Origin: Anaerostipes butyraticus
Lineage (GTDB): Bacteria; Bacillota; Clostridia; Lachnospirales; Lachnospiraceae
Assembly: GCF_016586355.1 (NCBI RefSeq)
Contig: NZ_BLYI01000006.1
Location: forward strand, 124,001-188,000
Length of the DNA stretch: 64,000 bases
Reading direction: 5' to 3'
Shown: one piece after another, positions 4,408 through 41,569 of the stretch
Position numbering within the stretch: the stretch's first letter is position 1
How the letters are laid out: every line of letters begins with the position of its first letter
Program-made: the position numbers and the translations under genes
Notes under the pieces: model-generated
What the model was told of the DNA's origin: nothing
What the model saw: only the letters and a program-made list of their open reading frames with translations
Database searches by the model: none

Positions 4408-4416
4408 GAGGGAGTC

Positions 4417-4935
4417 ATGAAGAAAAAGATTGGGTTTATCTTCTTGTGCTGTCTGTGTTTTGCGCTGATATTTGGCGGATGCGCCGGTCAAGATAAGAAA
4501 CAGACCGACAGCAGCGAAGAAGGAACGGCAGTTTATTATACGAATGAGAGCGGAACCCGTCTGATTCCTGTGAAAAAAAAGCTGGATCTGACGTCAGATG
4601 ACCCTCAGGAGAATGTGAAGACTATGCTGAAACAGATGAAAAATGTTAATGATGATGCGGAATATAAGTCTGCGATACCGGATGGTGTGATCATTAACAG
4701 TGCCGCAGTGAGCAACAACATCGTTGCGGTGGATTTCTCGACCGGATATAATAAGCTGGATGAGAATGAAGATCTGATCTGCAGAGCAGGGATTGTATAT
4801 ACGCTGACGCAGATAGACGGTATTAATTATGTATCGTTCAGTGTTTCAGGGAAGGCAATGCTTGATACCGATGGAAAAGCAATCGGCGCGTTGGGACGTG
4901 ACAGCTTTGTGTTTGGAGAACTGCCGATGGAATAA
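4417..4935 (+). CDS. GerMN-domain lipoprotein
   Basis: Secreted lipoprotein of 172 residues. The signal peptide ends in FGGC (Cys22). The rest, from about 55, matches the GerMN (sporulation/spore germination) domain pattern, with an EENVKTMLKQM-like helix and a C-terminal segment around YTLTQIDGINYVSFSVSGK. GerMN domains also occur in lipoproteins linked to two-component systems (for example LpqB in actinobacteria), which fits its position nine bases after the histidine kinase; it may modulate that kinase at the membrane surface. A role in germination is equally possible. The AGGAGGGAG ribosome site is strong. Confidence 0.82.
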   Translation: MKKKIGFIFLCCLCFALIFGGCAGQDKKQTDSSEEGTAVYYTNESGTRLIPVKKKLDLTSDDPQENVKTMLKQMKNVNDDAEYKSAIPDGVIINSAAVSNNIVAVDFSTGYNKLDENEDLICRAGIVYTLTQIDGINYVSFSVSGKAMLDTDGKAIGALGRDSFVFGELPME

Positions 4936-4938
4936 AAT

Positions 4939-7110
4939 ATGAAAAAAAGACCAGTTGTGTTATTTTTTGCCGGATGTGTTTCCGGCATGGCCGCTGTCTG
5001 GAATGAGGAAATTCCAGCGGCGGTTTTTTATTGTCTGGGAGGAGTGATTTTCTGGGGGCGGCAGATCCTCCGGGACCGGAGATATCTGATCGGACTGCTG
5101 GGAATGGCCATAGGGATGCTTCTTCTTTTTGCTCAAAGGCATACGGCAGAGCAGGAAATCCGCATGGTGGAGAAAAAGGCCCCGAAGGAAATATCGGGAG
5201 TGGTCCTTAAAAGTTCACAGACAGAAAGGAGCATGGCCTATCTGATTCAATGCCAGGGGTGGGATGGGAAACTTCTGCTTTATGATACCAGCAATGCAAA
5301 GGTGCGGACAGGAGATTGGATTCAGGCAGAGACCAAAGTAGAAATCCAGGAGAAAGCGGGAAATCCGGGGCAGTTTTCTGCCAGAAATTACTATTTTGCC
5401 AGAGGAATTTATTACCGGGGATTTGCAGAAAGAATTTATGTGAAGGGATACAGGAAAAATCCGCTGGAAAATGTTTTGGAAAAATCCAGAGAATGGATGA
5501 AAGATCAGATTCAGGAGCAGTACAGTAAAGAGGAGGCAGGGCTGATCCAGGGGATGCTTTTAGGCGATAAGAGCCTTATGGAAGAAGAACAGAAAGATGA
5601 TTTTAAAGAAAGTGGTCTGATTCATCTTCTGGCAGTCTCCGGACTGCATATTTCTCTGGCAGGAAGAAGCATTTACCGGATTTTAAGGCGGATTGGAGCT
5701 GGATTTCTTTTAAGTTCAACTGCAGGTTTTTTCACAGCCCTGTATTATGGCATGCTGACAGGAGGTTCTGTTTCCTCCATCCGGGCTGTCCTTATGCTGG
5801 GAATTTATTTTTTGTCACAGGTTCTGGGAAAAAACTATGATCTTTTGTCGTCTGCCTCTCTGGCCGGCAGCCTGATCCTGATCAGGAATCCTCTGTACTT
5901 TGGCGACACAGGTTTTTTGCTGTCCTTTTGTGCGGTGATCATCATCGGGTGCATCGGACAGGAAACAGGGAAAAAGAAGAAAGTGTGGGGAAAAGTCTTA
6001 AGCCGTATTGTATTTCCTTTAAAACTTCAGATGGGAATGCTGCCGCTTATGATTTATCTTCAGTATGAAACGCCAGTGTTTTCGTTTCTGGCAAATGCGG
6101 CGGCGGTTCCGGCGGCGTCTGTGGGATTTGCCATGGCGCTGGCTTTTGTGTGGCTGCCGCCCCTCTTTCTTCATCGGTGGATCCAGGCTTTCTTTTGGGC
6201 TGTTCTGAAGATTTCGCAGATCAAATATGGCATGATTACCATAGGACAGGTTCCGTTGTGGTGGGTCGCGGCAGGATATATCGTATTTTACCTGGCAGGA
6301 AAGAAAAAAGTGAAAATGCCTTTCTCTGTCCGCGTTGGTGTGATCTATATGGGAATCCTGTGCATGACGGCAGTGCCGGTGATGAGACCAAAGACCATAG
6401 CGTTTCTGGATGTGGGACAGGGAGACTGCATGATGGCAGAAACAGCAGGAGGAATGATCCTGGCAGACGGTGGAAGCAGCAGCGTTAAGAAAACAGGGCG
6501 GTACCGTATGCTTCCATACCTTAAGAGCCGGGGAAAACAAAAAATCAAGATTGCGGTCATTTCCCATATGGATGAAGATCATTATTCGGGAATACTGGAA
6601 CTTTTGGAGATGGGCCGGATTGAATATCTGGGGCTTCCGGACGTTCCCCGGGATGCGGCTTATGAGTCGGTAAAAACAGCAGCGGAAAAAGCAGGAACCG
6701 TCATATTTCTTCTGGCAGAAGGCAAAGTGATCAAAGGAGCGGATTTTTATCTGAAAGTCCTGCATCCGCCGGCCGGAAGCAGCCTGGAAAAAAATGCGGC
6801 ATCTCTCGTGCTGCAGGGAAATATCAATGGGAAAAGAATCCTTCTGACAGGAGATGTTGAAAAAGAAGGGGAGAAAGAATTATTGAGAAAGGAACTAAAA
6901 CAGGCGGATATTTTGAAAGTGGCTCATCACGGATCAAAAAATTCTACATCAGAAGAATTTCTGAGTCTTGTAAAGCCGGTACATGCGGTCATTTCCTGCG
7001 GAAAGGAGAATCGTTACGGGCATCCTCACAAAGAAGTGACGGAAAAAATTTTAAAATACAACAGCAGAATACACAGAACAGACAAAGAAGGCGCGGTTAT
7101 TTTTTGGTAG
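4939..7110 (+). CDS. comEC: ComEC/Rec2 DNA channel protein
   Basis: Polytopic membrane protein of 723 residues predicted to carry single-stranded DNA across the cytoplasmic membrane in transformation. Order: two N-terminal membrane segments, a soluble OB-like DUF4131 region (about 70-170), the competence domain with many membrane helices (about 195-470, including HLLAVSGLHISL), then a C-terminal metallo-beta-lactamase-like domain (about 485-723) with FLDVGQGDCMM, the metal motif SHMDEDHYSG, LTGDVEKEGE and VAHHGSKNSTSE. The length is near the family norm and no motif is missing. It starts three bases after the GerMN lipoprotein. No comG/pilus genes are in the window, so competence itself is not shown. 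Confidence 0.95.
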   Translation: MKKRPVVLFFAGCVSGMAAVWNEEIPAAVFYCLGGVIFWGRQILRDRRYLIGLLGMAIGMLLLFAQRHTAEQEIRMVEKKAPKEISGVVLKSSQTERSMAYLIQCQGWDGKLLLYDTSNAKVRTGDWIQAETKVEIQEKAGNPGQFSARNYYFARGIYYRGFAERIYVKGYRKNPLENVLEKSREWMKDQIQEQYSKEEAGLIQGMLLGDKSLMEEEQKDDFKESGLIHLLAVSGLHISLAGRSIYRILRRIGAGFLLSSTAGFFTALYYGMLTGGSVSSIRAVLMLGIYFLSQVLGKNYDLLSSASLAGSLILIRNPLYFGDTGFLLSFCAVIIIGCIGQETGKKKKVWGKVLSRIVFPLKLQMGMLPLMIYLQYETPVFSFLANAAAVPAASVGFAMALAFVWLPPLFLHRWIQAFFWAVLKISQIKYGMITIGQVPLWWVAAGYIVFYLAGKKKVKMPFSVRVGVIYMGILCMTAVPVMRPKTIAFLDVGQGDCMMAETAGGMILADGGSSSVKKTGRYRMLPYLKSRGKQKIKIAVISHMDEDHYSGILELLEMGRIEYLGLPDVPRDAAYESVKTAAEKAGTVIFLLAEGKVIKGADFYLKVLHPPAGSSLEKNAASLVLQGNINGKRILLTGDVEKEGEKELLRKELKQADILKVAHHGSKNSTSEEFLSLVKPVHAVISCGKENRYGHPHKEVTEKILKYNSRIHRTDKEGAVIFW

Positions 7111-7189
7111 ATTTTTTTATGAACAGGTAAAAAATTTCAATTTAATTGTGGAGAACAGAAAAATAATGATAAAAATAAAAGAGAATCTA

Positions 7190-7218
7190 TTGCATTTTCC
7201 ACAATGCATGTCTATAAT
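7190..7218 (+). promoter_or_regulatory. Sigma-A promoter of the VOC gene
   Basis: TTGCAT (7190-7195), a 17-base spacer and a perfect TATAAT (7213-7218) lie in the 171-base AT-rich gap after comEC, 63 bases before the VOC start codon. Confidence 0.75.
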
Positions 7219-7281
7219 AAAGAATATAATCTTTGTTTTAAAGAAAAAATCTTTGAAATAAACAAAAGGAGGATGTTTTAA

Positions 7282-7677
7282 ATGTTTAATTTACCAATGG
7301 ATCATATCGGACTTCACTGCAGTGATGTGGAATTGAATGCAAAGTGGTATCAGGACGCAATGGGATTTAAGGTTGCAGGAAAATTCCCGGGAAAAGGCGG
7401 ACATAATGTCTATTTTCTGGAGAACCCTTCTGACGGAAAAATGTATGAAATTTCTCAGAGGGATCAGCTTCCGGGAGGAGCGACTACAAGAGTAGATCAT
7501 ATTGCGTATCGTTCTGAGGATCTGGAAGCTGATTATGCTTACTGTAAAGAAAATGGATATAAAATCGTATCAGACGGAATCGAATTAAGTCCGAATTTCT
7601 GGGAAAAAGGATCCCGCTGTTTTAAGATTGAAAGCCCATGCGGTGAAGTAATTGAAATCTGCCAGAAAGTATCATAA
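7282..7677 (+). CDS. VOC-superfamily (glyoxalase-like) protein
   Basis: Protein of 131 residues with the vicinal-oxygen-chelate fold: paired beta-alpha-beta-beta-beta units starting at DHIGLHCSDVELNAKWYQ (about 6-23) and DHIAYRSEDLEADYAYCKENG (about 73-93). His and Glu residues at the strand starts and near the C-terminus (SPCGEVIEIC) are in place for a metal site. Members include lactoylglutathione lyase, dioxygenases and resistance proteins; the substrate is not identifiable. It is a single-gene unit with its own promoter, an AAAGGAGG ribosome site and a terminator. Confidence 0.8.
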   Translation: MFNLPMDHIGLHCSDVELNAKWYQDAMGFKVAGKFPGKGGHNVYFLENPSDGKMYEISQRDQLPGGATTRVDHIAYRSEDLEADYAYCKENGYKIVSDGIELSPNFWEKGSRCFKIESPCGEVIEICQKVS

Positions 7678-7707
7678 TAATGATATTTTCAAAATAAATA
7701 CCCGTCC

Positions 7708-7748
7708 GGCCGGTCTGCGGAAGAATTTTCTGCGGATCGGCCTTTTTT
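7708..7748 (+). terminator. Rho-independent terminator after the VOC gene
   Basis: GGCCGGTCTGCGGA pairs with TTCTGCGGATCGGCC (some G-T pairs), followed by six T residues at 7743-7748. Confidence 0.85.
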
Positions 7749-7783
7749 GGCAGTATGAGCCAATGATTTTTTTTTAACGGCTG

Positions 7784-7813
7784 CTGGACGTTCTCTCTGG
7801 GATGGGGTATACT
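7784..7813 (+). promoter_or_regulatory. Possible promoter of holA
   Basis: CTGGAC (7784-7789), an 18-base spacer and TATACT (7808-7813), 35 bases before holA. The -35 is poor, but the element closely resembles that at 40460-40489. Confidence 0.45.
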
Positions 7814-7848
7814 TAGGAAAGCAGAAAGAAAGAGCAGGCATAAAAGCA

Positions 7849-8844
7849 ATGAAAAAGATATTAGAACATATAAAAACAAATACATATCCCAGGTTTTATC
7901 TGTTTTACGGCAGTGAAAAATACATGATCGCTCAGATGAAAAACCAGCTGAAAAAGGCGCTGGTTTCTCCGGAAGATACAATGAATTATTCTTATTTTGA
8001 AGGGAAAAAAGCAGATGTGGAGGAGATCGCGGAACTGGCAAAGACGCTGCCGTTTTTCAATGACCACCGCCTGATCATTCTGGAAGATACAGGGCTTGGA
8101 AAGAAAACCAATGAAGATTTCCTGGAGCAGTTAAAAGAATGCGCAGACACAACTGTAATGATTTTTATTGAAGATGATGCAGACAAACGTTCTAAAATTT
8201 ATAAATTTCTGTCGAAGGAAGGACATGCGGTATCTTTTGAACCGGCAAAAGATGCAGAACTGATTCGGTGGCTTCAGTCGCTTTTAAAAAAAGAAGGGAA
8301 GCAGATGTCATCTTCCGTGATCCGAAGTTTTTTAAACCGCTGTGGATCAGATATGTTTACATTGAAAAATGAACTGGAAAAACTGATTTCTTATACAGGA
8401 GAGCGGCAGGACATTACGATCAGAGATCTGGATGAACTGACCTCTTCTCAGACAACCAATCAGATTTTTGCTATGCTGGAAGCGATTGCAAGAAAACAGA
8501 GAGATAAAGTGCTGGGATTATATTATGATTTGATTGAACTGAAAGAGTCGCCTTTTGGAATTCTTGCTCTTTTGGTCAGACAATGCAATCAGCTGATTCA
8601 GGTAAAAGACCTGACATCCAGGAATTCATCCAATGCGGCCATGGCAAAAGCAATGAAAGTACCGCCGTTTGTGGTGGGGAAATTAAAGGATCAGGCGAAA
8701 TTGTTTCGCATGGAAACGCTTTACCGGATGACGGAAGCCTGTGCCAGAACGGATGAACAGATTAAGAACGGACGGATCAACGACCGGGTCGGAGTAGAGC
8801 TTCTCCTGATAGAATTCAGCGGGAAAGAAGCAGAAATCGGATAG
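7849..8844 (+). CDS. holA: DNA polymerase III subunit delta
   Basis: Clamp-loader delta subunit, which opens the sliding clamp at the replication fork. 331 residues, the normal size. The N-terminal part FYLFYGSEKYMI (about 18-29) holds the degenerate P-loop region typical of HolA; domain II follows, and the C-terminal helical collar begins near 215 (AIARKQRDKVLGLYYDLIEL). The gene is preceded by a weak AGCAGG site. It lies just upstream of rpsT in the opposite direction; the holA-rpsT neighbourhood is common in Firmicutes. Confidence 0.93.
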   Translation: MKKILEHIKTNTYPRFYLFYGSEKYMIAQMKNQLKKALVSPEDTMNYSYFEGKKADVEEIAELAKTLPFFNDHRLIILEDTGLGKKTNEDFLEQLKECADTTVMIFIEDDADKRSKIYKFLSKEGHAVSFEPAKDAELIRWLQSLLKKEGKQMSSSVIRSFLNRCGSDMFTLKNELEKLISYTGERQDITIRDLDELTSSQTTNQIFAMLEAIARKQRDKVLGLYYDLIELKESPFGILALLVRQCNQLIQVKDLTSRNSSNAAMAKAMKVPPFVVGKLKDQAKLFRMETLYRMTEACARTDEQIKNGRINDRVGVELLLIEFSGKEAEIG

Positions 8845-8900
8845 GAGAAGTTTCGTTTTCCTTTTTTGCTGGGGCGCTTCGGCCGGCGGATGATACAAAT

Positions 8901-8933
8901 AAAAAAGAAGCCTGACGGTTGGCTTCTTTTTTT
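8901..8933. terminator. Bidirectional terminator between holA and rpsT
   Basis: AAGAAGCC (8905-8912), eight-base loop, GGCTTCTT (8921-8928), with T residues to 8933 on the plus strand and six A residues from 8901 giving a T run on the minus strand. It serves both convergent genes. Confidence 0.9.
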
Positions 8934-8968
8934 ATGGGTTAATGATTTGTTTTATATCTATATTCGAA

Positions 8969-9232
8969 TTAAGCTACTTTGTTTACAGCTTTTGTCAGAC
9001 GGGAAATCTTTCTGGAAGCTGTATTTTTGTGGTAGATTCCTTTAGAAGCTGCTTTGTTGATTTCAGCGATGCATGCTTTTAATGCGTCTTCAGCTGCTGC
9101 TTTATCAGCTGCTGCGATGGCTGCTTCTACCTTTTTCACATAAGTTTTAACTTTAGATTTGATTGCTTTGTTTCTTGCTGTTTTTGTTTCGATTACTTTA
9201 ATTCTCTTTTTTGCAGATTTAATGTTTGCCAA
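8969..9232 (-). CDS. rpsT: 30S ribosomal protein S20
   Basis: Small subunit protein S20, 87 residues, rich in Lys and Ala, with the family N-terminus (M)ANIKSAKKRIK and the C-terminal KGIYHKNTASRKISRLTKAVN block. The start is the TTG at 9232-9230, directly before ANIKSAKKR and eight bases after a GGAGGT site; a further in-frame ATG at 9247 would add five residues that the family lacks. A TTG start is known for other rpsT genes and may matter for translational autoregulation. It is transcribed alone from the promoter at 9333-9361, with a leader of about 95 bases. Confidence 0.95.
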   Translation of the reverse strand: MANIKSAKKRIKVIETKTARNKAIKSKVKTYVKKVEAAIAAADKAAAEDALKACIAEINKAASKGIYHKNTASRKISRLTKAVNKVA

Positions 9233-9287
9233 TGTGGGCACCTCCAATATGATAACATTCTTTTTATTTGATTCGTTTCGTGATTCA

Positions 9288-9317
9288 TCTATAGCGAGAC
9301 ACGGTTTAAGCCATAGA
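9288..9317 (-). other. Hairpin in the rpsT leader
   Basis: On the minus strand TCTATGGC (9317-9310) can pair with GCTATAGA (9295-9288) across a 14-base loop. It lies in the untranslated leader between promoter and ribosome site and could take part in control by S20 binding, which is inference. Confidence 0.4.
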
Positions 9318-9332
9318 CAAACATACTGTTAT

Positions 9333-9361
9333 ATCTTATAGAATTCCGGTTTTTTTGTCAA
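9333..9361 (-). promoter_or_regulatory. Sigma-A promoter of rpsT
   Basis: On the minus strand a perfect TTGACA (9361-9356), a 17-base spacer and TAAGAT (9338-9333). Confidence 0.8.
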
Positions 9362-9380
9362 TATCCTGATGGGAAAAAAT

Positions 9381-9410
9381 ACATAAATTATTGAAAAAAA
9401 TACAATACTA
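9381..9410 (+). promoter_or_regulatory. Possible forespore (sigma-G/F) promoter of gpr
   Basis: ACATA (9381-9385), 18 bases, AATACTA (9404-9410): four of five and six of seven matches to the sigma-G consensus GHATR and CATNHTA. No sigma-A-like pair is seen here. It precedes gpr by 21 bases, and forespore control is what is known for gpr in Bacillus. Confidence 0.5.
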
Positions 9411-9431
9411 ACTCAAAAAAAGGAGGCAGCT

Positions 9432-10292
9432 ATGCAGAATCGAACCGATCTGGCTCTGGAACTGAAGGAAGATGCAAAGGAAAGTTCCTTGTTATCCGGA
9501 ATTGCGGTTACCACAAGGATTGACGCTTCTCATCATATCAAGGAGACGAAGATTACCATTAAAAATAGAAAAGGAGAAGAAGCCCTTGGAAAACCAAAAG
9601 GACAGTACATTACGATTGAAACAAAAGATTTGTCGAGAAATGATCAGGGATTTCATAGGGAGATGAGTGATGCGCTGTTTTCTAATTTGAAAAGCATGAT
9701 CTCAGAAGACAGCAAAATTCTTGTGGCAGGACTGGGAAACGCGGGAGTTACGGCGGATTCCCTGGGCCCGAAAGTCGTAGAAAATCTCTATATTACCCGG
9801 CATTTGAAAAAAGAAGGGATGATAAAAGAAGCGAGAGAGTTAAGCGCTATCGCGCCAGGAGTCATGGCGCAGACTGGAATAGAAACCAGCGAAATTTTAG
9901 AGGCCCTGGTAGAAAAAACAAAGCCGGATGTTATGATTGCTATTGACGCACTGGCAGCCAGAAGTTCCAAACGTCTGAACCGAACCATTCAGATCAGTGA
10001 TACAGGAATCGCTCCGGGATCCGGAGTAGGAAATCACAGGAATGAGATTACCAGACATACAGTAGGAATTCCTGTGCTGGCTATCGGAGTGCCAACGGTA
10101 ATTTCTGTGCCGGCGATTATCAATGATCTTCTGGAAGAGGAAGAACAGGAGACAGCTTATAAGAAACTGGATAAAGAATTTATTTCCATGCATGTTACGC
10201 CTAAAAATATTGATGAATCTATAAGAAGGATCAGTTATACGATCTCAGAAGGAATTAATCAATTGCTGCATATTCGTGAAAATCGTGAATAG
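9432..10292 (+). CDS. gpr: GPR germination endopeptidase
   Basis: Spore protease of 286 residues that degrades small acid-soluble spore proteins during germination, made as a zymogen in the forespore. The N-terminal RTDLALELKEDA segment is the propeptide region; the catalytic core has GLGNAGVTADSLGPKVVENL (about 103-122), APGVMAQTGIET and IAIDALAARS. The family is an aspartate-type protease related to HybD. The start ATG has an AAAGGAGG site. spoIIP follows after nine bases, as in other Clostridia and Bacillus, so the two are co-transcribed at least in part. Confidence 0.95.
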   Translation: MQNRTDLALELKEDAKESSLLSGIAVTTRIDASHHIKETKITIKNRKGEEALGKPKGQYITIETKDLSRNDQGFHREMSDALFSNLKSMISEDSKILVAGLGNAGVTADSLGPKVVENLYITRHLKKEGMIKEARELSAIAPGVMAQTGIETSEILEALVEKTKPDVMIAIDALAARSSKRLNRTIQISDTGIAPGSGVGNHRNEITRHTVGIPVLAIGVPTVISVPAIINDLLEEEEQETAYKKLDKEFISMHVTPKNIDESIRRISYTISEGINQLLHIRENRE

Positions 10293-10301
10293 AATGAAAA
10301 C

Positions 10302-11411
10302 ATGGGGAAAAAAAAGAGATGGACCATGCTCCTTTGTTTCTGCTTGTTTGTGATTTTCACGGCAGCCGGGACGGTAAGAAACCAGGAATTTGCAGTAGAG
10401 GCAGTGACTGGGTATTATGACGGCCTGATGGAAAGTTTTTTTCCGTCCTATCGAAATAAAAGTCAGCCTGTTTATGGGACAGTCCTGTCCAGAATGATCG
10501 GAATTTACCGGGAAGAAGTAAACCCGCTGCTTCAGTACAGCAGTGATTACCGAAAGACTACAGGGGAAGATCTGGTATCAGGAGAATACTATTATTTTGA
10601 AGATGATGAAGACAGAGACAACAGTGTAGAGGAAGTGGCAGAAGGAACAAAGAAATTTAATCTGAAAAACTGGGAAAAACCGGCATACCTGAGAAAATAT
10701 ATTTACCAGATTGACAGTACGACCATGGTAACCAACAGTGAGATCAATGGAAAAGAACTGCTGGGAATGGATTTAAGTCTTTCAAAATCAGATTCTCCCC
10801 AGGTACTGATCTATCATACACATGGAAGCGAGCAGTATAAAGACAGCCGTCCGGGCAGTAAGAGTGATACAGTGATCGGTGTCGGAGATGAACTGACCAG
10901 AGAGCTGAAGGAAAGAGGAGTTTCTGTAATCCATGACCGAAAGGTTTACGATATGAGAAATGGAAAAGAAGAGCGTTCCAAAGCCTATGATTATGCGGCA
11001 AATGCCATAGAAAAGTATTTAAAAAAATATCCGGGGATTCAGGTGATCATTGATCTTCACCGGGATGGTGTCAATGAAAACACTCATCTTGTGACAACGC
11101 AGAATGGGAAGAAAATGGCGCAGATCATGTTTTTTAACGGGGTCAGCCGAACAGCCAGCAATGGAAATCTTTCCTATCTGAAAAACCCAAACAAAAAAAC
11201 GAATCTTGCTTTCAGCCTTCAGCTTCAGGCAGAGGCTATGAAAAAATATCCGGGATTTACCAGAAAGATTTATATCAAGGGATACCGGTATAATCTTCAT
11301 TACCGGGGCAGAAGTCTCCTGGTAGAGGTAGGAGCCCAGAATAATACGGTAAAACAGGCAAAAGCATCCATGAGTTTACTTGCTGAATTATTGAATAATG
11401 TGTTATACTGA
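10302..11411 (+). CDS. spoIIP: Stage II sporulation protein P
   Basis: Membrane-anchored cell wall hydrolase of the SpoIIDMP engulfment complex, with amidase and endopeptidase activity on septal peptidoglycan. 369 residues: a single N-terminal membrane segment (about 7-24) and, from about 165, the SpoIIP catalytic domain with IYHTHGSEQY, VIIDLHRDG and the late LVEVGAQNN segment carrying the zinc and catalytic residues. The middle part (about 45-150) is variable linker. It starts nine bases after gpr. Confidence 0.93.
   Translation: MGKKKRWTMLLCFCLFVIFTAAGTVRNQEFAVEAVTGYYDGLMESFFPSYRNKSQPVYGTVLSRMIGIYREEVNPLLQYSSDYRKTTGEDLVSGEYYYFEDDEDRDNSVEEVAEGTKKFNLKNWEKPAYLRKYIYQIDSTTMVTNSEINGKELLGMDLSLSKSDSPQVLIYHTHGSEQYKDSRPGSKSDTVIGVGDELTRELKERGVSVIHDRKVYDMRNGKEERSKAYDYAANAIEKYLKKYPGIQVIIDLHRDGVNENTHLVTTQNGKKMAQIMFFNGVSRTASNGNLSYLKNPNKKTNLAFSLQLQAEAMKKYPGFTRKIYIKGYRYNLHYRGRSLLVEVGAQNNTVKQAKASMSLLAELLNNVLY
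11380..11409 (+). promoter_or_regulatory. Possible promoter of lepA within the spoIIP end
   Basis: TTGCTG (11380-11385), 18-base spacer, TATACT (11404-11409). A separate promoter is expected because lepA is vegetative while the two genes before it are sporulation genes. The match is moderate. Confidence 0.4.
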
Positions 11412-11460
11412 ACCGTAAGTTCTATGGAAAGAACGAGTAGATGTGTTTAGGAGGAAACTT

Positions 11461-13272
11461 ATGGCTGCTGATCAGAGCAAAATTCGTAATTTTTGTATCA
11501 TTGCCCATATTGATCATGGAAAATCAACGCTGGCAGACCGGATCATCCAGATGACAGGAACGCTGACTGACCGGGAGATGCAGGAGCAGGTCCTTGATAA
11601 TATGGATCTGGAGAGAGAGCGTGGAATCACTATCAAATCTCAGGCAGTGAGGATCATATATAAGGCAAAAGACGGAGAAGAATATATTTTTAATCTGATA
11701 GACACGCCGGGACATGTGGACTTTAACTATGAAGTGTCAAGAAGCCTGGCGGCTTGTGAGGGCGCAATTCTTGTAGTGGATGCGGCCCAGGGGATTGAGG
11801 CTCAGACCCTTGCTAATGTTTATCTGGCATTGGACCATGATCTGGAAATCATGCCGGTAATCAACAAGATCGATCTTCCAAGCGCTGAGCCGGAAAGGGT
11901 AAAAGCGGAAATTGAAGATGTGATCGGGATTGACGCAGAAGATGCGCCGCTGATTTCCGCAAAGAGCGGTCTTAATGTAGATCAGGTGCTGGAACAGATC
12001 GTAGAAAAGATACCGGCTCCCCAGGGAGATCCGGATGGACCGCTGCAGGGCCTGATCTTTGACAGCATATATGATGCTTATAAAGGGGTCATCATTTTTA
12101 CCAGGATCAAGGAAGGCACCATTAAGGCCGGCACCCGCATGAAGATGATGGCAACCGGAGAATCTGCGGAAGTCGTGGAGGTAGGAACCTTTGGAGCCGG
12201 GCAGTTCCTGCCGTGTGATGAACTGACGGCAGGAATGGTAGGCTATGTAACCGCAAGCCTTAAGAATGTTCATGGAACCAGAGTTGGTGACACCATCACA
12301 GATGTGGATCGTCCGTGTTCCGAGCCTCTGCCGGGATATAAAAAAGTCAATCCGATGGTTTACTGCGGATTATATCCGACAGATGGAGCAAAATATCCGG
12401 ATCTGAGGGATGCGCTGGAAAAACTGCAGCTCAATGACGCAGCGCTTCAGTTTGAGCCGGAGACGTCTGTGGCGCTGGGATTCGGATTCCGCTGTGGTTT
12501 TCTGGGGCTTCTTCATTTGGAGATTGTTCAGGAACGTCTGGAGCGAGAATATAATCTGGATCTCGTAACGACAGCTCCGGGAGTTATTTACCGGGTATAC
12601 AAAACAGACGGAACGATGGTGGAACTGACGAATCCGTCCAATCTGCCGGATCCGTCTGAGATTGACCATATGGAAGAACCAATCGTGACAGCGGAGATCA
12701 TGGTGACATCAGAATATGTAGGAGCCATCATGGGATTATGCCAGGAACGCCGGGGCGTGTATCTTGGAATGGAGTATATTGAGGAGACCCGGGCGGTGCT
12801 TCGCTATGAACTTCCGTTAAATGAGATCATATATGATTTCTTCGACGCACTGAAATCCAGATCCAGAGGATATGCCTCTCTGGATTATGAAATGAAGGGT
12901 TATGAAGAAGCGCGTCTTGTGAAACTGGACATCCTGATCAACAAAGAAGAAGTGGATGCCCTTTCCTTCATTGTCCATGAAGATACCGCATATGAAAGAG
13001 GCAGAAAGATGTGCGCCAAGCTGAAGCAGGAGATCCCGAGACACCTGTTTGAAATTCCGATTCAGGCGGCAATTGGAAGCAAGATTATCGCCAGGGAGAC
13101 AGTCAAGGCTATGCGCAAGGATGTCCTGGCCAAATGTTACGGCGGAGATATTTCAAGGAAGAGAAAACTTCTGGAAAAACAGAAAAAAGGAAAGAAGAGG
13201 ATGCGTCAGGTGGGCAGCGTAGAGATCCCGCAGGAAGCGTTCATGAGTGTGCTGAAGCTGGATGAAGATTAA
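11461..13272 (+). CDS. lepA: Elongation factor 4 (LepA)
   Basis: Ribosome-associated translational GTPase of 603 residues. The GTPase domain has [13 protein letters not shown] (P-loop), [24 protein letters not shown] and the SAKSG motif; domains II, III and V follow, and the LepA-specific C-terminal domain ends the protein with [20 protein letters not shown] 11461 is chosen because AGGAGG at 11449-11454 sits six bases upstream; a frame extension to 11443 has no such site. The hemW gene overlaps its 3' end by 11 bases. Confidence 0.97.
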
Positions 13273-14404
13273 AGACATGGAATTATATATTCATATTCCT
13301 TTTTGCAGGAAAAAATGCAATTACTGTGATTTCTGCTCATTTTCATCATCCAAAGGACAGGTGGAAGCTTATATGGCACAGCTGGAGTCAGAAATCAGAG
13401 CCTGGGGAGAGTCCCTGCCGGGCCGGAAAATTTCCACGGTTTTCATTGGAGGAGGCACGCCGTCTCTTTTAAATGCCGGACAGATCAGACATTTGATGCA
13501 GACAGTGAGGGACAGCTTTCAGGTAGAGAAAAAAGCGGAAATCACAATGGAGGCAAACCCGGGGACGGTCTCTTTCGACCGGCTGAAAGGATATCTGGAA
13601 GCCGGAGTCAGCCGGCTCAGTTTTGGCCTTCAAAGTATGCAGGAAGAGGAACTCCAGTATCTGGGCAGGATTCACAGCCGGGAGGATTTCCTTTCTGGAT
13701 TTGAGGCTGCCAGGGCTGCCGGATTTCAGAATATCAGTGTAGATCTGATGAGCGGGATTCCAAAGCAGACAATGGAATCATTTGAAGATACCTTAAGAAA
13801 AACGGCAAAGCTTGGACCAGAACATATTTCTGCCTATAGTCTGATCATTGAGGACGGCACGCCTTTTGCGGAGGATGAGAATCTGGAAGAACTGCTGCCT
13901 TCGGAAGAAGATGACGTCAGAATGTATGAGATGACGGAAAAAATCCTTGAAGAATATGGATATCATAAATATGAAATTTCTAATTATTCCAAACCGGGAT
14001 ATGAATGTCGGCATAATCTTGGCTACTGGTCCCGGATTCCGTATCTGGGAGTTGGACTGAATGCCGCTTCCTATTTGGAAGAGAAACGGTTTCAGCAGAC
14101 GGAATCCATGAAGGAATATCTGGATCAAAAAAATTTCCTCAGATATTTTGAGGAAGCGCGGCCATTATCCTGGGAAGAACAGGTGGAAGAATTTATGTTT
14201 CTGGGACTTCGCAGAACAGCGGGTGTAAAGGAAACAGAATTTGAAGAGTGTTTTGGACGTTCTATGGAGTCAGTTTACGGACCAGTGATTGAGAAGGCGG
14301 AAAAAGGCGGATGGATAAAAAGAAATCCGGACCAGATCGCTTTAACACAGCAGGGAATTCTGTTTAGCAATCAGGTATTAAGTGAATTTCTTTTATCGGA
14401 ATAA
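13262..14404 (+). CDS. hemW: HemW-type radical SAM haem chaperone
   Basis: Radical SAM protein of 380 residues related to coproporphyrinogen dehydrogenase but, by family knowledge, a haem-binding chaperone. The cluster motif is FCRKKCNYC (CxxxCxxC, about 15-23); [18 protein letters not shown] and [11 protein letters not shown] follow, with the HemW C-terminal winged-helix domain from about 300. The CNYCDF continuation is typical of HemW. The ATG at 13262 overlaps the lepA end by 11 bases; ATG 13277 is an alternative. A separate HemZ is encoded at 46882, so the window has both relatives. Confidence 0.92.
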
Positions 14405-14414
14405 AAAGGAATGT

Positions 14415-14448
14415 GAGGAACCGATTTTTGAATCGGTTCCTCTTTTTT
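14415..14448 (+). terminator. Terminator of the lepA-hemW unit
   Basis: Perfect 12-bp stem GAGGAACCGATT / AATCGGTTCCTC with a TTTG loop, then six T residues. Confidence 0.93.
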
Positions 14449-14472
14449 GGTTATACTTTTAGAAAGGCCGCA

Positions 14473-15375
14473 TTATGGAAGTTCCAGAAGTTTTTGCACA
14501 TTGATCCGTCCCCAGCCCTGGTGGGATTTTGGTGTGTTAAGCTGATCACAGTTGAATTTCAGCTTCTTTTTTGCGTCCTTATTTGTATAATACGGGTATT
14601 TTTCCAGAAGCAGAGCCATGGCTCCGGAAACGACCGGGGTTGCCATGGAAGTGCCGCTTTTCACAGCGTAGCGGTTATGGAGACTGCAGGAATAGATATT
14701 GGTTCCCGGAGCGACGACATCCGGCTTCATAACACAGGAACGGGTCGGTCCTCGTCCGGAATAATGACTTGGAAGTCTGCGGTTTCCCCAGATTTTCAGG
14801 GAGTCATCGCTGGAGCCCACGGTAATGATCTTATGACTGTTGCCTGGGATTGAGATACTCTGCGGCCGGGGTCCATGGTTGCCTCCTGCGATACAGACGA
14901 TCAGTCCGTCATCCCACAGCTGGTTTACCTGACGAAGGATTTCGCGGCTGGTCTGGTCTTCGTCAGTTCCCGGACTTCCGATGGAAATATTTACAATACG
15001 GATTTGATAGATCCTGTAATTTTCGTGGATCCATTGAAGACCATGGATGAATGCTGAGGGCACGCCGTTTCCAAGAGAATTTAAAACTTTCAGGGATATG
15101 ATATGAGCTTTTGGAGCGATGCCGATATAATCTTTGCCGGTTCTGCCTGCGGAACAGGCAATTCCTGTGATATGAGTGCCGTGGCTGTTATCATCGTAGC
15201 ATTCATATTTATGATGAACGAAGTCAACAAAGGCTTCGATACGCTGACTGACAGGGGAAAAATCCCGATGGGGAGACAGTCCGGTATCCAGAAAAGCGAT
15301 GCCGATGCCGTCTCCCAGAAAGCCGTTTTTATGGGCCAGATCCGCATGGATCTGAGCGGAAACAGGTTGTATCAT
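14473..15375 (-). CDS. S8-family subtilase, intracellular type
   Basis: Subtilisin-like serine protease of 300 residues with the full triad: Asp30 in IAFLDTGLSPH, His65 in NSHGTHITGIA and Ser243 in SGTSMATPVVSGA; the oxyanion Asn is in AGGNHGP (about 166). There is no signal peptide and no long propeptide, since the catalytic domain begins within about 20 residues, which resembles Bacillus intracellular serine proteases. The start has an AAAGGAG site. It is a single-gene unit divergent from the lrgAB pair. The substrate is unknown. Confidence 0.9.
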   Translation of the reverse strand: MIQPVSAQIHADLAHKNGFLGDGIGIAFLDTGLSPHRDFSPVSQRIEAFVDFVHHKYECYDDNSHGTHITGIACSAGRTGKDYIGIAPKAHIISLKVLNSLGNGVPSAFIHGLQWIHENYRIYQIRIVNISIGSPGTDEDQTSREILRQVNQLWDDGLIVCIAGGNHGPRPQSISIPGNSHKIITVGSSDDSLKIWGNRRLPSHYSGRGPTRSCVMKPDVVAPGTNIYSCSLHNRYAVKSGTSMATPVVSGAMALLLEKYPYYTNKDAKKKLKFNCDQLNTPKSHQGWGRINVQKLLELP

Positions 15376-15442
15376 TTCTTTTCTCCTTTTTGTTCTATTA
15401 TAGAATACGTAAAAAGGCAGAAAAGGGTTTGTGGGAGAAGTT

Positions 15443-15790
15443 ATGAAATATTTAAAACAATGGATGCTGATACTGATCTTTACTCTGCTGGGAGAGCTTC
15501 TGAAGGCGATTCTGCCGTTTCAGATTCCGGCAGGAATATACGGACTGATTCTGATGTTTTTTTGTCTCTGGTCAGGGATTCTGCGAAAAGATCAGATTCA
15601 GGAAACCGCAGGGTTCCTGCTTCATATTATGCCGGTCATGTTTATACCAGCGGCAGCAGGAATCCTGCAGGCGGGAGAAGAATTAAGAAAAATCTGGGTG
15701 CCGGCGCTTTTTGCAGCTGTGATCGTTACGGCGGCGGTTATGGCCGTGTCAGCGGCGGCAGCTCAGAAAACATCAGGAAAAGGAGAATGA
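15443..15790 (+). CDS. CidA/LrgA-family holin-like membrane protein
   Basis: 115 residues with four membrane segments. The segment FQIPAGIYGLILMF followed by MFIPAAAGIL is typical of the CidA/LrgA family, proposed to modulate murein hydrolase activity or to carry small metabolites such as pyruvate. ATG 15443 after GGGAG (15433-15437) is preferred to the upstream GTG 15431. The LrgB partner starts one base after the stop codon, so the two are one functional unit. Which of the Lrg or Cid subtypes it is cannot be told. Confidence 0.83.
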   Translation: MKYLKQWMLILIFTLLGELLKAILPFQIPAGIYGLILMFFCLWSGILRKDQIQETAGFLLHIMPVMFIPAAAGILQAGEELRKIWVPALFAAVIVTAAVMAVSAAAAQKTSGKGE

Positions 15791-15791
15791 G

Positions 15792-16484
15792 ATGGGTGCG
15801 TTTTTTCGAAATTCCATATTTGCAGGCGCGGCTCTGACGCTGGCTTCTTATGAAATCGGACAGATCATCAGAAAAAAATACCGGTCGGCCCTGTTTCATC
15901 CGCTGTTCCTGGCGTCAGTGATCGTGATCCTGATTTTGAAAATATTTCAGATCGAGTATGAAGATTATTTCAGAAGTGCCAGGTATATTTCTTTTTATTT
16001 AACACCGGCGACGGTCTGTCTGGCCCTGCCGCTTTATGACCAGCTTCATCTGTTAAAACGAAATGCCCGTGCGGCGGCAGCCGGAATCATGTCAGGCACG
16101 CTGACCAGTTTTTTGTCCGTGTATCTGCTCGCCAGATGGTTTCGGCTGTCAAGGCAGGAATATGTAACGCTTCTTCCAAAATCCATTACAACCGCCATTG
16201 GGATTGAGATTTCAGAAGAACTGGGTGGAATTATTTCTGTAACAACAGCGGTGATTCTTATGAGCGGGATTTTTGGAAGTCTGATGGCAGAATTTATTTT
16301 TAAGATTTGTAAGATAGAAGATCCGATAGCAAGAGGAATTGCCCTTGGAACGGCCTCTCATGCGGTAGGGACAGCAAAAGCCATGGAGTCAGGAGGCGAA
16401 GAAGGGGCGATGGGAAGTTTTGCCATTGTCGCTTCCGGGCTGGTTTCGGTTCTTCTTGCGCCAGTTTTTGTAAAGTTGTTTTAA
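15792..16484 (+). CDS. lrgB: LrgB-family membrane protein
   Basis: 230 residues, strongly hydrophobic, with about six to seven membrane helices. Family marks are PKSITTAIGIEISEELGG (about 134-151), ISVTTAVILMSGIFG and the C-terminal GTASHAVGTAKAMESG stretch. It is the usual partner of LrgA/CidA and is translationally coupled to it. Proposed roles in related systems are control of autolysis and uptake or export of pyruvate-like acids; neither can be confirmed here. Confidence 0.9.
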   Translation: MGAFFRNSIFAGAALTLASYEIGQIIRKKYRSALFHPLFLASVIVILILKIFQIEYEDYFRSARYISFYLTPATVCLALPLYDQLHLLKRNARAAAAGIMSGTLTSFLSVYLLARWFRLSRQEYVTLLPKSITTAIGIEISEELGGIISVTTAVILMSGIFGSLMAEFIFKICKIEDPIARGIALGTASHAVGTAKAMESGGEEGAMGSFAIVASGLVSVLLAPVFVKLF

Positions 16485-16503
16485 GTGAAAATTTTCGACA
16501 TGC

Positions 16504-16534
16504 AAAAAGCTGCCGGTTTTAAAAGGCAGCTTTT
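16504..16534. terminator. Bidirectional terminator between lrgB and the glycosyltransferase gene
   Basis: AAAAGCTGCC / GGCAGCTTTT with a ten-base loop; short T tract on the plus strand and a five-A run on the left that gives T residues on the minus strand. Confidence 0.75.
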
Positions 16535-16545
16535 GTTATGGTTAT

Positions 16546-17562
16546 TTAATTGAACCCGATAAATTTACGGGCAGCTTTGTAGATACCGATCGTTGTTTTC
16601 CTTCCGCCGTATCCAGGAAGGTTAACGGCAAATCCGACAATGCTGTGGCGGATTTTGCGGTAAAGCTGTTTGTCCTGATCGTACAGGTAGCGCCATAGTT
16701 CTTTCTTCATCTTAAGATGTTCTTTCTTTCCGGATTTCAGTGCAATAATGGAAGAAATGCACATGATGATAGAAAGATAATGACGCATATATCTGGCCAG
16801 AGGCTTGCTGTCCAGCTGGAATCCGGCAAGATAATCGATCATGACTTTTGTGACATAAAACTGCTGATCGATTCTCTTGATCATGTTGGCTTCGTTAACA
16901 GACTGATCGTCTCTTCCAATAAAATAGCGATAGAAATTTACGTCCAGATAGTACATGGTCTTCACATAAGGAAGAGGTTTGAAGACGTAAATATTGTCAA
17001 CATAAAAAGTATGTTCCGGAAGCTTTAAGCCGCATTCCCGCAGAAGAGCGGTCCGGTAAATAACGGAATGCATCAGAATATACTGTCCAATCGGAAAACG
17101 TTTTACATCGCTCCATCGGAAAATCTTTTCTTTTGGAATAGCGTGACGGTAGTGGATGACTGTCTTGTGTTTTGCGCCCTGTTTCTCATATACATAGTTG
17201 GCAAGCAGCATGTCAAGGACAGTACCCTTGTCGTAGAAATCTGAGAGCGTCTCCATGATCTTATCGTATGCGGCACGGTTTACCCAGTCATCACTGTCGA
17301 CAACTTTCAGGTAGATGCCGGACGCATTGGCGATTCCGGTGTTGACAGCACCGCCGTGGCCTTTGTTTTCCTGGTGGATGGCACGGCAGATGGAAGGGTA
17401 TTTTTTTTCATATTCATTAGCAATATCGGCCGTATGGTCGGAAGAACCGTCATTGACGATCAGGATTTCCACTTTTTCACCGCCTGCAAGAAGCGTATCA
17501 ATGCAGTGGCGCATATATTCCTGGGAGTTGTAACATGGTACAACAAAGGATAATAATTTCAT
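16546..17562 (-). CDS. Family 2 glycosyltransferase
   Basis: GT-A type glycosyltransferase of 338 residues. The N-terminal domain shows FVVPCYNSQEYM (nucleotide-binding start), ILIVNDGSSDHT, GHGGAVNTGIANASG and the metal-binding VVDSDDWV (DxD-like, about 93-100). The C-terminal 130 residues are helical and lack membrane segments. The start at 17562 has a GGAGGT site six bases upstream; a longer form from 17574 would overlap that site. No polysaccharide cluster is near, so the acceptor is unknown. Confidence 0.88.
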   Translation of the reverse strand: MKLLSFVVPCYNSQEYMRHCIDTLLAGGEKVEILIVNDGSSDHTADIANEYEKKYPSICRAIHQENKGHGGAVNTGIANASGIYLKVVDSDDWVNRAAYDKIMETLSDFYDKGTVLDMLLANYVYEKQGAKHKTVIHYRHAIPKEKIFRWSDVKRFPIGQYILMHSVIYRTALLRECGLKLPEHTFYVDNIYVFKPLPYVKTMYYLDVNFYRYFIGRDDQSVNEANMIKRIDQQFYVTKVMIDYLAGFQLDSKPLARYMRHYLSIIMCISSIIALKSGKKEHLKMKKELWRYLYDQDKQLYRKIRHSIVGFAVNLPGYGGRKTTIGIYKAARKFIGFN

Positions 17563-39464: not shown

Positions 39465-39492
39465 ATTACAATATGGGGCAGGAGGAATGATT

Positions 39493-39906
39493 ATGGAACA
39501 TATTTCAAAGATTGTAGTAAGATATGCGGAAACGGATCAGATGGGAATCGCCCATCACAGCTGCTACCCGGTCTGGTTTGAAGTAGCAAGAACGGAATTC
39601 ATCAAAGCTGCCGGCATCTCCTATACAGAAGTCGAAGAAATGGGGATTATCCTGCCTCTTACTTTTCTGGAATGCAGATATAAAACAGCTGCGCTGTATG
39701 AAGATGAGCTGGAAATCCATGCGAAACTTACAAAACTTACACCGGTCAGACTGGAATTTTCTTATGAAGTTACAAGAGATGGGGAAGTGATCGCCACTGG
39801 AAAGACCGGACATGGAATGGTAAGCAAGGATCTGAAGCCGCTGAATGTAAAAAAAGAACACCCGGATTTGTACCGGATGTTTGAAGATGCATTAGAGACG
39901 GCTTAG
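39493..39906 (+). CDS. YbgC/FadM-family acyl-CoA thioesterase
   Basis: Hot-dog fold thioesterase of 137 residues. VRYAETDQMGIAHHSCYPVWFEVAR holds the conserved Asp and His (about 8-32), followed by the hot-dog helix and strands. ATG 39493 is preferred because AGGAGG (39480-39485) is seven bases before it; ATG 39487 is too close. It starts 28 bases after the MATE gene. Its last 15 bases overlap the end of the convergent rlmH gene. Confidence 0.9.
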   Translation: MEHISKIVVRYAETDQMGIAHHSCYPVWFEVARTEFIKAAGISYTEVEEMGIILPLTFLECRYKTAALYEDELEIHAKLTKLTPVRLEFSYEVTRDGEVIATGKTGHGMVSKDLKPLNVKKEHPDLYRMFEDALETA

Positions 39907-40338
39907 CTGTTCCGTGAGGATCAGCCGCATAAGCTGATGTGGAAATGTCAGATTTCCAAAACTTAATTTGATTCGGCCTTTGGCGACAACGTCAGGAGAC
40001 AGTCCGAGAGATCCGCCGATGATAAAGGAAACGCAGGAGATGGAGTCCTGTTTCAGCTGATTCCATGTTTCCATAAATTCTTCGGTGGAAAACGGGGTGC
40101 CTTCGATGCACAAAGGAATTACAAAACTATCAGAAGGAATTCGTGACAGAATACGGGTTCCTTCTGTTTTTTTGATTTTATCTTCTTCTTTCTGACTGGC
40201 ATTGTCCGGTGTTTTTTCATCAGGAAGTTCAATGATCTCAAAATCGTATTTTTTCCGGATCTGTTTTGCGTAACGTGCAATCAGTTCTTTCAAATAAGTT
40301 TCTTTTAATTTTCCGACACAAATGATCTGTATTTTCAT
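39892..40338 (-). CDS. rlmH: RlmH 23S rRNA methyltransferase lacking its C-terminal tail
   Basis: SPOUT methyltransferase that methylates pseudouridine 1915 of 23S rRNA. From the family start (M)KIQIICVGKLKE it has 148 residues against about 159 normally. The N-terminal part and the SAM-binding knot FIIGGSLGLSPDV and FPHQLMRLILTEQL are intact, but the protein stops after EQLSRL, whereas RlmH normally goes on YRA...EPYHK. The missing tail is where the convergent thioesterase gene overlaps (15 bases), and no frameshift restores it. The frame is open for another 11 codons upstream of 40338, but the AAGGAGG site precedes 40338. See the second RlmH-like gene at 41165. Confidence 0.88.
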   Translation of the reverse strand: MKIQIICVGKLKETYLKELIARYAKQIRKKYDFEIIELPDEKTPDNASQKEEDKIKKTEGTRILSRIPSDSFVIPLCIEGTPFSTEEFMETWNQLKQDSISCVSFIIGGSLGLSPDVVAKGRIKLSFGNLTFPHQLMRLILTEQLSRL

Positions 40339-40459
40339 AAAAGGAGGCTCCTTCTGTATTTTTCGTTTCATTGATTTTACAATAAAGGAGAGAGGAAAGC
40401 AACCGGCGGGGACAGTTGTCAGGGGCTTTTTCTGAAATCAGAAGGATTCCCGCTTCGGA

Positions 40460-40489
40460 CTGGACGGGCTATCCGGTATGGGGTATAAT
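40460..40489 (+). promoter_or_regulatory. Possible promoter of the anchored protein at 40539
   Basis: CTGGAC (40460-40465), 18 bases, TATAAT (40484-40489). Closely like the element before holA (7784-7813). Further -10-like TATAAT sequences lie at 40515-40520. Confidence 0.5.
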
Positions 40490-40538
40490 ATAATGAAATC
40501 TGGGATAATATCAGTATAATGGAACTGGAGGAGTGTAT

Positions 40539-41159
40539 TTGAAATTAAAAAAATCAACGATTATGATTCTGGTAATGAGCTGGATCTTATTTTTTGGGGT
40601 ATGTTTTGCGGCTTTTTATCAGCTGGAACAGATGAAAGAAGCCCGGGCTGCAAATGAAAAGATCTTTAAGGATCAGTCCACAGAGCAGATTTCAGAAGAA
40701 CCTGCGGAATACGCGGATGTCAGAAAGTTTATGGCTGATTATTATAAAGCCATTCAGAGAGATGACAGAGAAAAATTAAAAACGATGGTAGAGGATTACC
40801 AGGAACTGGAAAAACAGCAGGACAGCCTGGAACAGTATATTGAGGAATATCAGGATCTTTCGTACCGGGTGGAGAGCGTACAGGATTCCGGGGATTATAT
40901 AGTATACGTTTCTTATCAGCTGAAAATAAAAGGAATCAAGACTCCGGCGCCGGGGATGACACCGTATTATCTGGCAAAAAAAGGAGATTCGTTTCTGATC
41001 TATAACAATGAGGATCATGATACGGAGGCAGTCAGGACGGCCAAACAGGAAAGTCTGGGGCGCAAAGAAAACAAAGAGCTGATCGAAAAAGTAAATGAAG
41101 AGTACGAAGAGGCTTTGAAGACAGATGATCAGCTGAAGAATTTTTTGAAGGATGAGTAA
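40539..41159 (+). CDS. Membrane-anchored protein of unknown function, NTF2-like
   Basis: 206 residues, no named function recognised. One membrane segment (about 7-26), a short linker, then a soluble domain outside the cell whose start VRKFMADYYKAIQRDDREKL looks like an NTF2-like fold, with a central strand-rich part (VYVSYQLKIKGIKTPAPGMTP) and a C-terminal charged helix with coiled-coil character. The TTG start at 40539 is seven bases after GGAGG; GTG 40533 is too close. The stop is five bases before the second RlmH-like gene, so the two are co-transcribed. Confidence 0.65.
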   Translation: MKLKKSTIMILVMSWILFFGVCFAAFYQLEQMKEARAANEKIFKDQSTEQISEEPAEYADVRKFMADYYKAIQRDDREKLKTMVEDYQELEKQQDSLEQYIEEYQDLSYRVESVQDSGDYIVYVSYQLKIKGIKTPAPGMTPYYLAKKGDSFLIYNNEDHDTEAVRTAKQESLGRKENKELIEKVNEEYEEALKTDDQLKNFLKDE

Positions 41160-41164
41160 GAAGT

Positions 41165-41569
41165 ATGATGAGAATACAAGTGTATGTACAGCAGAAGAAG
41201 GCTGATCCACTTTACCGTAAGGCGATGGAAGAGTATCTAAAACGCCTGGGGGCTTATGCGTCGGTTTCTGTCACTTATCTCAAGAATGAAAAACAGATGC
41301 AGAAGAAGGCGGCCGGAAGCAGAAAGAAGTTTTTTGTTGCATGTGGGAAAAAAACAATGACGAGCCCTGAATTTGCCAGAGAGATAGAGAATCTTTCTGT
41401 CCGCGGAGCGTCATCGATTGATTTTTTTATTGGGGAACAGCCGGAAGAAGATATGGAAGTATTTCGGATTTCTTCTTTTACGATGGATTCGTCTCTGACG
41501 GCAGCGGTGCTTCTGGAGCAGATTTACCGGGCCTACCGGATCATTCATCATCAGGCATATCATAAATAG
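41165..41569 (+). CDS. Divergent RlmH-like protein without the SAM knot
   Basis: 134 residues. The N-terminal half (YRKAMEEYLKRLGAYA) and the segment SPEFAREIENLSVRGASSIDFFIG follow the RlmH plan, and the end LLEQIYRAYRIIHHQAYHK is the RlmH C-terminal tail almost unchanged. But the glycine loop GGSxGL, the LSxxTFPHQ motif and nearby residues that bind SAM are replaced (FIGEQPEEDM, TMDSSLTAAV), and about 25 residues are lost overall. It therefore probably cannot bind SAM alone. It complements the defect of the truncated RlmH encoded about 0.8 kb upstream. Start ATG 41165 or 41168. Confidence 0.75.
   Translation: MMRIQVYVQQKKADPLYRKAMEEYLKRLGAYASVSVTYLKNEKQMQKKAAGSRKKFFVACGKKTMTSPEFAREIENLSVRGASSIDFFIGEQPEEDMEVFRISSFTMDSSLTAAVLLEQIYRAYRIIHHQAYHK

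Follow-up and report, generated by a model that had tools for sequence, protein, structure and literature searches.

A probable heterodimeric RlmH split between a tail-less protein and a tail-bearing partner, with relatives of the partner carried by a mobile element in rlmH

RlmH (YbeA, OrfX; PF02590, COG1576) is the homodimeric N3-methyltransferase of pseudouridine 1915 in 23S rRNA (PMC5430550). According to Koh 2017 (PMC5430550), SAM lies in one monomer, the tail of the other monomer supplies catalytic residues and one SAM site is used per dimer. The same study assigns the positive residues R25, R26, R142 and R154 to the non-SAM monomer, describes E138, Y152, H153 and R154 as essential and R142 as important, and reports no detectable activity for the E. 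coli RlmH variants Y152F, H153F and R154A. The 3′ end of the rlmH gene is also where SCCmec, ECC and other SCC-like islands insert via large serine recombinases (PMC6222049, PMC10061031).

RNA-modifying enzymes built from two different subunits have been described elsewhere. The mt-LAF5/6 heterodimer of the Trypanosoma brucei mitoribosome (PMC12123411) likewise joins two different SPOUT subunits, but it is eukaryotic, stands in an A-loop 2′-O-methyltransferase context rather than that of RlmH and, as described there, has no link to a mobile element. Enzymes of the Trm6/Trm61 and Tad2/Tad3 types (PMC1829167) are heterodimers whose subunits differ in function, as here, but they are eukaryotic and have other folds. 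RlmH, its composite site, SCC and ECC insertion at rlmH and the trypanosome SPOUT heterodimer are therefore already known (PMC5430550, PMC9508554, PMC6222049, PMC10061031, PMC12123411). Among the titles and abstract openings listed in searches of the open-licence literature, we found neither a split RlmH nor an element that clips the tail and carries the partner.

The window analyzed here, a 64,000-nucleotide stretch of the Anaerostipes butyraticus genome, contains two genes, A and B, whose products share the RlmH fold. As in RlmH (PMC5430550), the site appears to be a composite of two monomers, with the SAM pocket in A and the substrate-side residues and tail in B; unlike RlmH, in which one gene encodes everything, each of the two genes lacks one half of the site. 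A and B very probably pair as a single heterodimer, in which A contributes the SAM site and B the tail, and which does the normal job of RlmH.

Two RlmH-like genes in one window

Protein A starts with MKIQIICV and ends with EQLSRL followed by a stop codon (the longest open reading frame begins at 40371). It matches PF02590 over profile positions 1–143 of 154 at 147 bits, compared to a Pfam cut-off of 27, and contains both the glycine loop (GGSLGL) and the PHQ motif of the SAM pocket (Table 1). The C-terminal catalytic tail, Y-H-K/R, is absent from A and none is readable in frame beyond the stop, confirming the initial annotation, in which the rlmH product was said to stop after EQLSRL without the tail. 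The K/R25-R26 motif has also been lost from A proteins as a group, being scrambled in most, and the predicted model of A has a pLDDT of 92.8. As a separate observation, residue 77 of A (window position 40110, minus strand) is a cysteine (LCIEG) that is invariant in 26/26 A proteins of the family and occupies the position of E. coli D73, beside the SAM pocket and the dimer interface.

Table 1 Features of the window and of the related mobile element
Feature	Position	Strand	Details
Protein A, tail-less RlmH, SAM-site half	39892..40338	-	148 aa; PF02590 147 bits
A glycine loop GGSLGL, residues 108-113, kept	40000..40017	-	invariant in 26/26 A proteins
A PHQ motif, residues 133-135, kept	39934..39942	-	P133 and H134 in 26/26 A proteins; Q135 in >=90%
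Convergent thioesterase gene, neighbour outside the system	39487..39906	+	PF13279 and PF03061; 15-bp 3′-end overlap with the 3′ end of A
Protein B, RlmH-like, putative tail-donor half	41165..41569	+	134 aa; PF02590 67 bits, profile positions 1-154
B K25-R26 motif, kept	41240..41245	+	invariant in 24/24 and 35/35 B proteins
B catalytic tail Y-H-K	41558..41566	+	invariant in 24/24 and 35/35 B proteins
Element in rlmH 3′ end (other genomes)	L171 (reverse complement ~2600-17480), L144, L145		~15-16 kb; contains B

Protein B has the C-terminus EQIYRAYRIIHHQAYHK and also exceeds the PF02590 cut-off (67 bits versus 27). The tail, R142 and E138 are invariant columns in 24 B proteins, and only 0–2 of six SAM-side residues remain in any of 35 B proteins. 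Helix 4, the glycine loop and PHQ are all missing from B. Its AlphaFold model (pLDDT 92.1) nonetheless has the RlmH fold, with five strands and no helix between strands 4 and 5, and aligns to RlmH structures with Z scores of 17.0–18.4 and an rmsd of 1.8–2.1 over 127–132 residues; the best score (18.4) is to 1to0, and the next SPOUT enzymes reach only Z 9.6. The earlier claim that the second protein keeps the tail and has lost the glycine loop and PHQ is thus upheld, and the loss of helix 4 is added here. A and B are the sole PF02590 genes over the cut-off in the 3.17-Mb genome, two further matches lying below it (E = 0.013 and 0.26). NCBIfam RlmH models match both genes, with A above the cut-off of one model and B below all of them, and the split is therefore easily overlooked in annotation.

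Co-occurrence of the two forms across genomes

In all 11 genomes of the window genus, one gene stops at profile position 141–149 and a second, short gene extends to 154, the two being sometimes distant or on separate contigs. A sequencing error at the rlmH end, which the initial annotation had named as a possible flaw, is ruled out because the truncation is conserved across species; the 11/11 arrangement, together with the dN/dS values given below, also led us to reject a pseudogene or chance.

The survey of tail-less and knot-less forms proposed in that annotation was extended to 396 family genomes (≥90% complete), using a PF02590 match threshold of E = 0.001. A match was found in 378 of these, with the pair present in 16 and a single match in 359. 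The 16 include the window genome and one more from its genus, and the other 14 represent 11 further genera. For the single-match genomes, all of the best matches listed end at profile position 154. A tail-less A stands alone in one family genome, G370 (94% complete), in which no B was detected. Two apparent two-gene genomes, G088 and G221, were rejected as having one full-length gene that is repeated or broken at contig ends. Within each of two genera (g147 and g152), one species has a full-length RlmH and another has the pair. Two side observations come from the same set: one genome (G233, L059) has a single, very divergent, tailed RlmH with AGSLGP in place of GGSLGL and THL in place of PHQ, and 18/396 genomes have no PF02590 match at E = 0.001, suggesting that the modification can be lost.

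Outside the family, 393 genomes of the class were searched with a B profile, and short B genes were picked by match length and then by sequence. At least ten short B genes were found among the matches listed. A tail-less A is also present in nine of those ten genomes, from seven families, while the tenth (G548) has B only, on a contig that begins inside the gene. Matches of 441 nt in families f9 and f61, and similar ones in f28, f36, f62 and f66, were rejected as B because they are tailed genes with a shorter linker; one match among these candidates (G781) is cut by a contig end. In the tailed RlmH of f9, f61 and f36 (L098, L103, L118, L121), the linker is shortened in a region that is absent from B too. 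A scan of species genomes with the element-type B described below as query, which reaches close relatives only, found Lutispora saccharofermentans (G604), Clostridium sp. cel8, Acetivibrio straminisolvens and a Zobellia match. The last, 26% identical over 465 nt, was taken by its length to be a full-length RlmH. Clostridium sp. cel8 and A. straminisolvens have a tail-less A alongside B, although the A gene of A. straminisolvens, as assembled, also contains an internal frameshift.

Overall, 36 genomes have both a tail-less A and B, one has A only (G370) and one has B only (G548). B is therefore present in 36/37 genomes with a tail-less A. A full-length RlmH beside the second gene, the observation that the initial annotation had set against its own reading, occurs in 0/37 B-bearing genomes (36 pairs and G548). 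The two genes lie within ~250 bp of each other in 14 of the 36 pair genomes, either convergent (G691 and eight family genomes, namely G041, G066, G099, G167, G340, G375, G378 and G382) or in tandem with A first (G225, G465, G530, G641 and G700). In G429, B is ~46 kb from A, which follows metallo-hydrolase-like and protease-like genes, a setting also seen for rlmH in other genomes inspected. B on plasmids or phages was considered and rejected: 28 plasmid and 24 phage records matched, and the best 20 of each are ~430–480 nt, which fits a complete RlmH and not B. A search of IMG/VR found nothing closely related to the element-type B.

Complementary residue loss and selection

An alignment of 59 full-length proteins with 35 of type A and 35 of type B was scored for two sets of residues: a donor side consisting of the seven residues of Koh 2017 (PMC5430550), with K or R accepted at positions 25 and 154, and a SAM side consisting of L72, G103, G104, G107, L108 and H129. 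All seven donor-side residues are present in 59/59 full-length proteins and in 34/35 B proteins (six in the other), compared to 0–4 in A. Conversely, all six SAM-side residues are present in 34/35 A proteins (five in the other), compared to 0–2 in B. Of 55 positions with ≥85% conservation in the full-length set, A alone retains 28 (at ≥80%) and B alone 16; three are retained in both and eight in neither (Fisher p = 1.3e-5, a test that assumes an independence which alignment columns do not have). With one sequence per genus, the counts become 27, 17, 2 and 9 (p = 8e-6); leaving out either the element forms or the window genus gives 28, 16, 1 and 10 (p = 3e-6 each). Thresholds of 0.6 and 0.9 gave p = 1.4e-4 and 5e-5. 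Six of the positions kept by B and lost by A (E22, Y141, I146, S81, G95 and S96) are predicted from these alignments to serve the donor side.

These losses fall along the line between SAM site and tail, and they support the initial proposal that A and B may be an obligate heterodimer; the premise of that proposal, a dimer site built from both subunits with the tail acting in trans, agrees with the account in Koh 2017 (PMC5430550). In the mechanism we propose, A would bind SAM in its intact knotted pocket, and B, with an RlmH fold lacking the glycine loop and helix 4, should not. B would instead present the RNA-binding K25-R26, the E138-R142 pair and the YHK tail to A, and each A–B dimer would thereby have one complete active site with which to methylate pseudouridine 1915 of 23S rRNA. 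We infer that A binds B, that A–A and B–B dimers would be inactive, that pseudouridine 1915 is methylated and that the host would depend on B.

A heterodimer of A and B might also have changed its target, acting at another rRNA position, on another substrate or in a regulated reaction, and the branch lengths of A and B, which point to greater divergence than that of ordinary RlmH in several genera, are in keeping with this. We nevertheless regard a new target as unlikely, since the substrate-side K25, R26 and R142 and the tail are invariant in B, the pair genomes have no other RlmH for the usual job and, in the element form, the resident RlmH is missing little besides YHK.

Two observations count against a heterodimer that performs the usual reaction: G370 has a tail-less A with no detectable B, and E138, alone among the essential residues, is retained in both proteins (33 E and 2 D of 35 in A; 34/35 in B). 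The retention of E138 in both exceeds what a simple split requires, and the simple model leaves it unexplained. Both observations, along with the SAM pocket kept in A, would fit a tail-less A homodimer that is active alone, with B having some other function, for instance in regulation or in ribosome binding. This seems improbable indeed given that the E. coli tail mutants lack detectable activity (Koh 2017, PMC5430550), that the residues lost by A are just those kept by B and that B accompanies all but one of the tail-less genes.

Where dS is unsaturated, dN/dS is 0.06–0.16 for both genes, indicating purifying selection, and together with the predicted folds this indicates that A and B are both maintained proteins. 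The family genomes without a PF02590 match suggest that RlmH may be dispensable, and both genes could then be decaying remnants of a lost modification; the low dN/dS in both, the motifs that are invariant across the 35 proteins of each type and the confident predicted folds make this scarcely credible. The heterodimer is supported by the conservation of the pair, the closeness of the two genes in 14 of the 36 pair genomes, the complementary losses, selection on both genes, the predicted RlmH fold of B and the element junctions described next.

A mobile element in rlmH that carries B

In Clostridium sp. cel8, L. saccharofermentans (G604) and G475, an element lies in the 3′ end of rlmH and contains B. 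The rlmH gene stops just before YHK in all three, its reading frame being neither kept nor regenerated, and the DNA beyond the stop is near-identical in G604 and G475, with the same junction in cel8. In cel8, rlmH is followed by the gene of a large serine recombinase with Resolvase, Recombinase and zinc-ribbon domains, then by those of the type I restriction subunits R, M and S, of a phage-type integrase and of an RNase H-like protein, and then by B. G604 has matching open reading frames in the same order, including a homologous recombinase, and although this genome scored 7% contaminated, its rlmH and B are on one contig. At the far end of the element in G604 and cel8, 1.7 kb beyond B, the first end recurs as an inverted near-copy, after which comes the missing rlmH terminus, GEPYHK and a stop. 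This separate remnant led us to reject a recombination that moved the tail from rlmH to B, with the last codons of B being a captured rlmH end. In G475 the far end is present, the rlmH remnant has decayed and no recombinase or restriction open reading frame was seen in the element. Together, the three junctions indicate that tail loss and B can arrive at the same time.

The last rlmH codons as the site, a large serine recombinase and degenerate inverted ends are all features shared with SCC-like islands (PMC6222049, PMC10061031). However, as described in those reports, the ends of SCC-like islands include the last rlmH codons, whereas the elements found here leave rlmH with a stop before YHK and carry B inside. 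A related element leaves the tail in place, as expected of an SCC-like element: in G450 (L146), which has the genus code of G604, rlmH ends in an intact GEPYHR and a homologous recombinase comes after it. In A. straminisolvens, rlmH lacks YHK and restriction genes lie closely behind it, ahead of B; no recombinase intervenes.

Element-type B occurs in 1/22 and 1/6 genomes of the two families concerned. Between G604 and G475, dS is 0.285 for B and saturated for A, indicating that B moved between lineages and that clipping most likely occurred independently in each A gene. When A and full-length proteins were placed in one tree, with the tail columns left out, the A label required six changes, at least three of them forced by starred branches, although the bootstrap had not converged and the tree includes some long rows. 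The A gene of G604 groups with full-length genes of f37 (95/97) and those of f45 and f57 with f38 (98/84). A single origin of A genes was not rejected by an AU test from which three long rows were left out (p = 0.30). In a tree that also contains 25 full-length genes, all 35 B proteins cluster together (100/99), and the element forms neighbour the tandem pairs of f45 and f57. The columns of this tree include the lost motifs, however, and so grouping by shared loss is possible.

On balance, we lean slightly towards an origin in which a mobile element turns the host homodimer into an obligate heterodimer, by clipping the RlmH tail and supplying a tailed partner without a SAM pocket, and of which the window genus is a settled descendant. 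Our lean is no stronger because no element end was seen in the window genus on incidental inspection. The chromosomal pairs, including that of the window, may be settled relatives of the element arrangement.

From structures and mutants, Koh 2017 (PMC5430550) argued for one SAM site and the tail of the partner, and evolution seems here to have separated the two. The split pair therefore makes it possible to test functional asymmetry in a SPOUT enzyme directly and at low cost, and it marks the six putative donor-side positions named above in addition to the seven residues taken from that study. The element form suggests a cassette that uses a coding sequence as its attachment site and keeps the function by supplying the lost part in trans, without restoring the end of the gene. 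If so, the host would depend on a gene of the element for the modification unless the element excises cleanly, and settled descendants such as the window genus would keep the split enzyme permanently.
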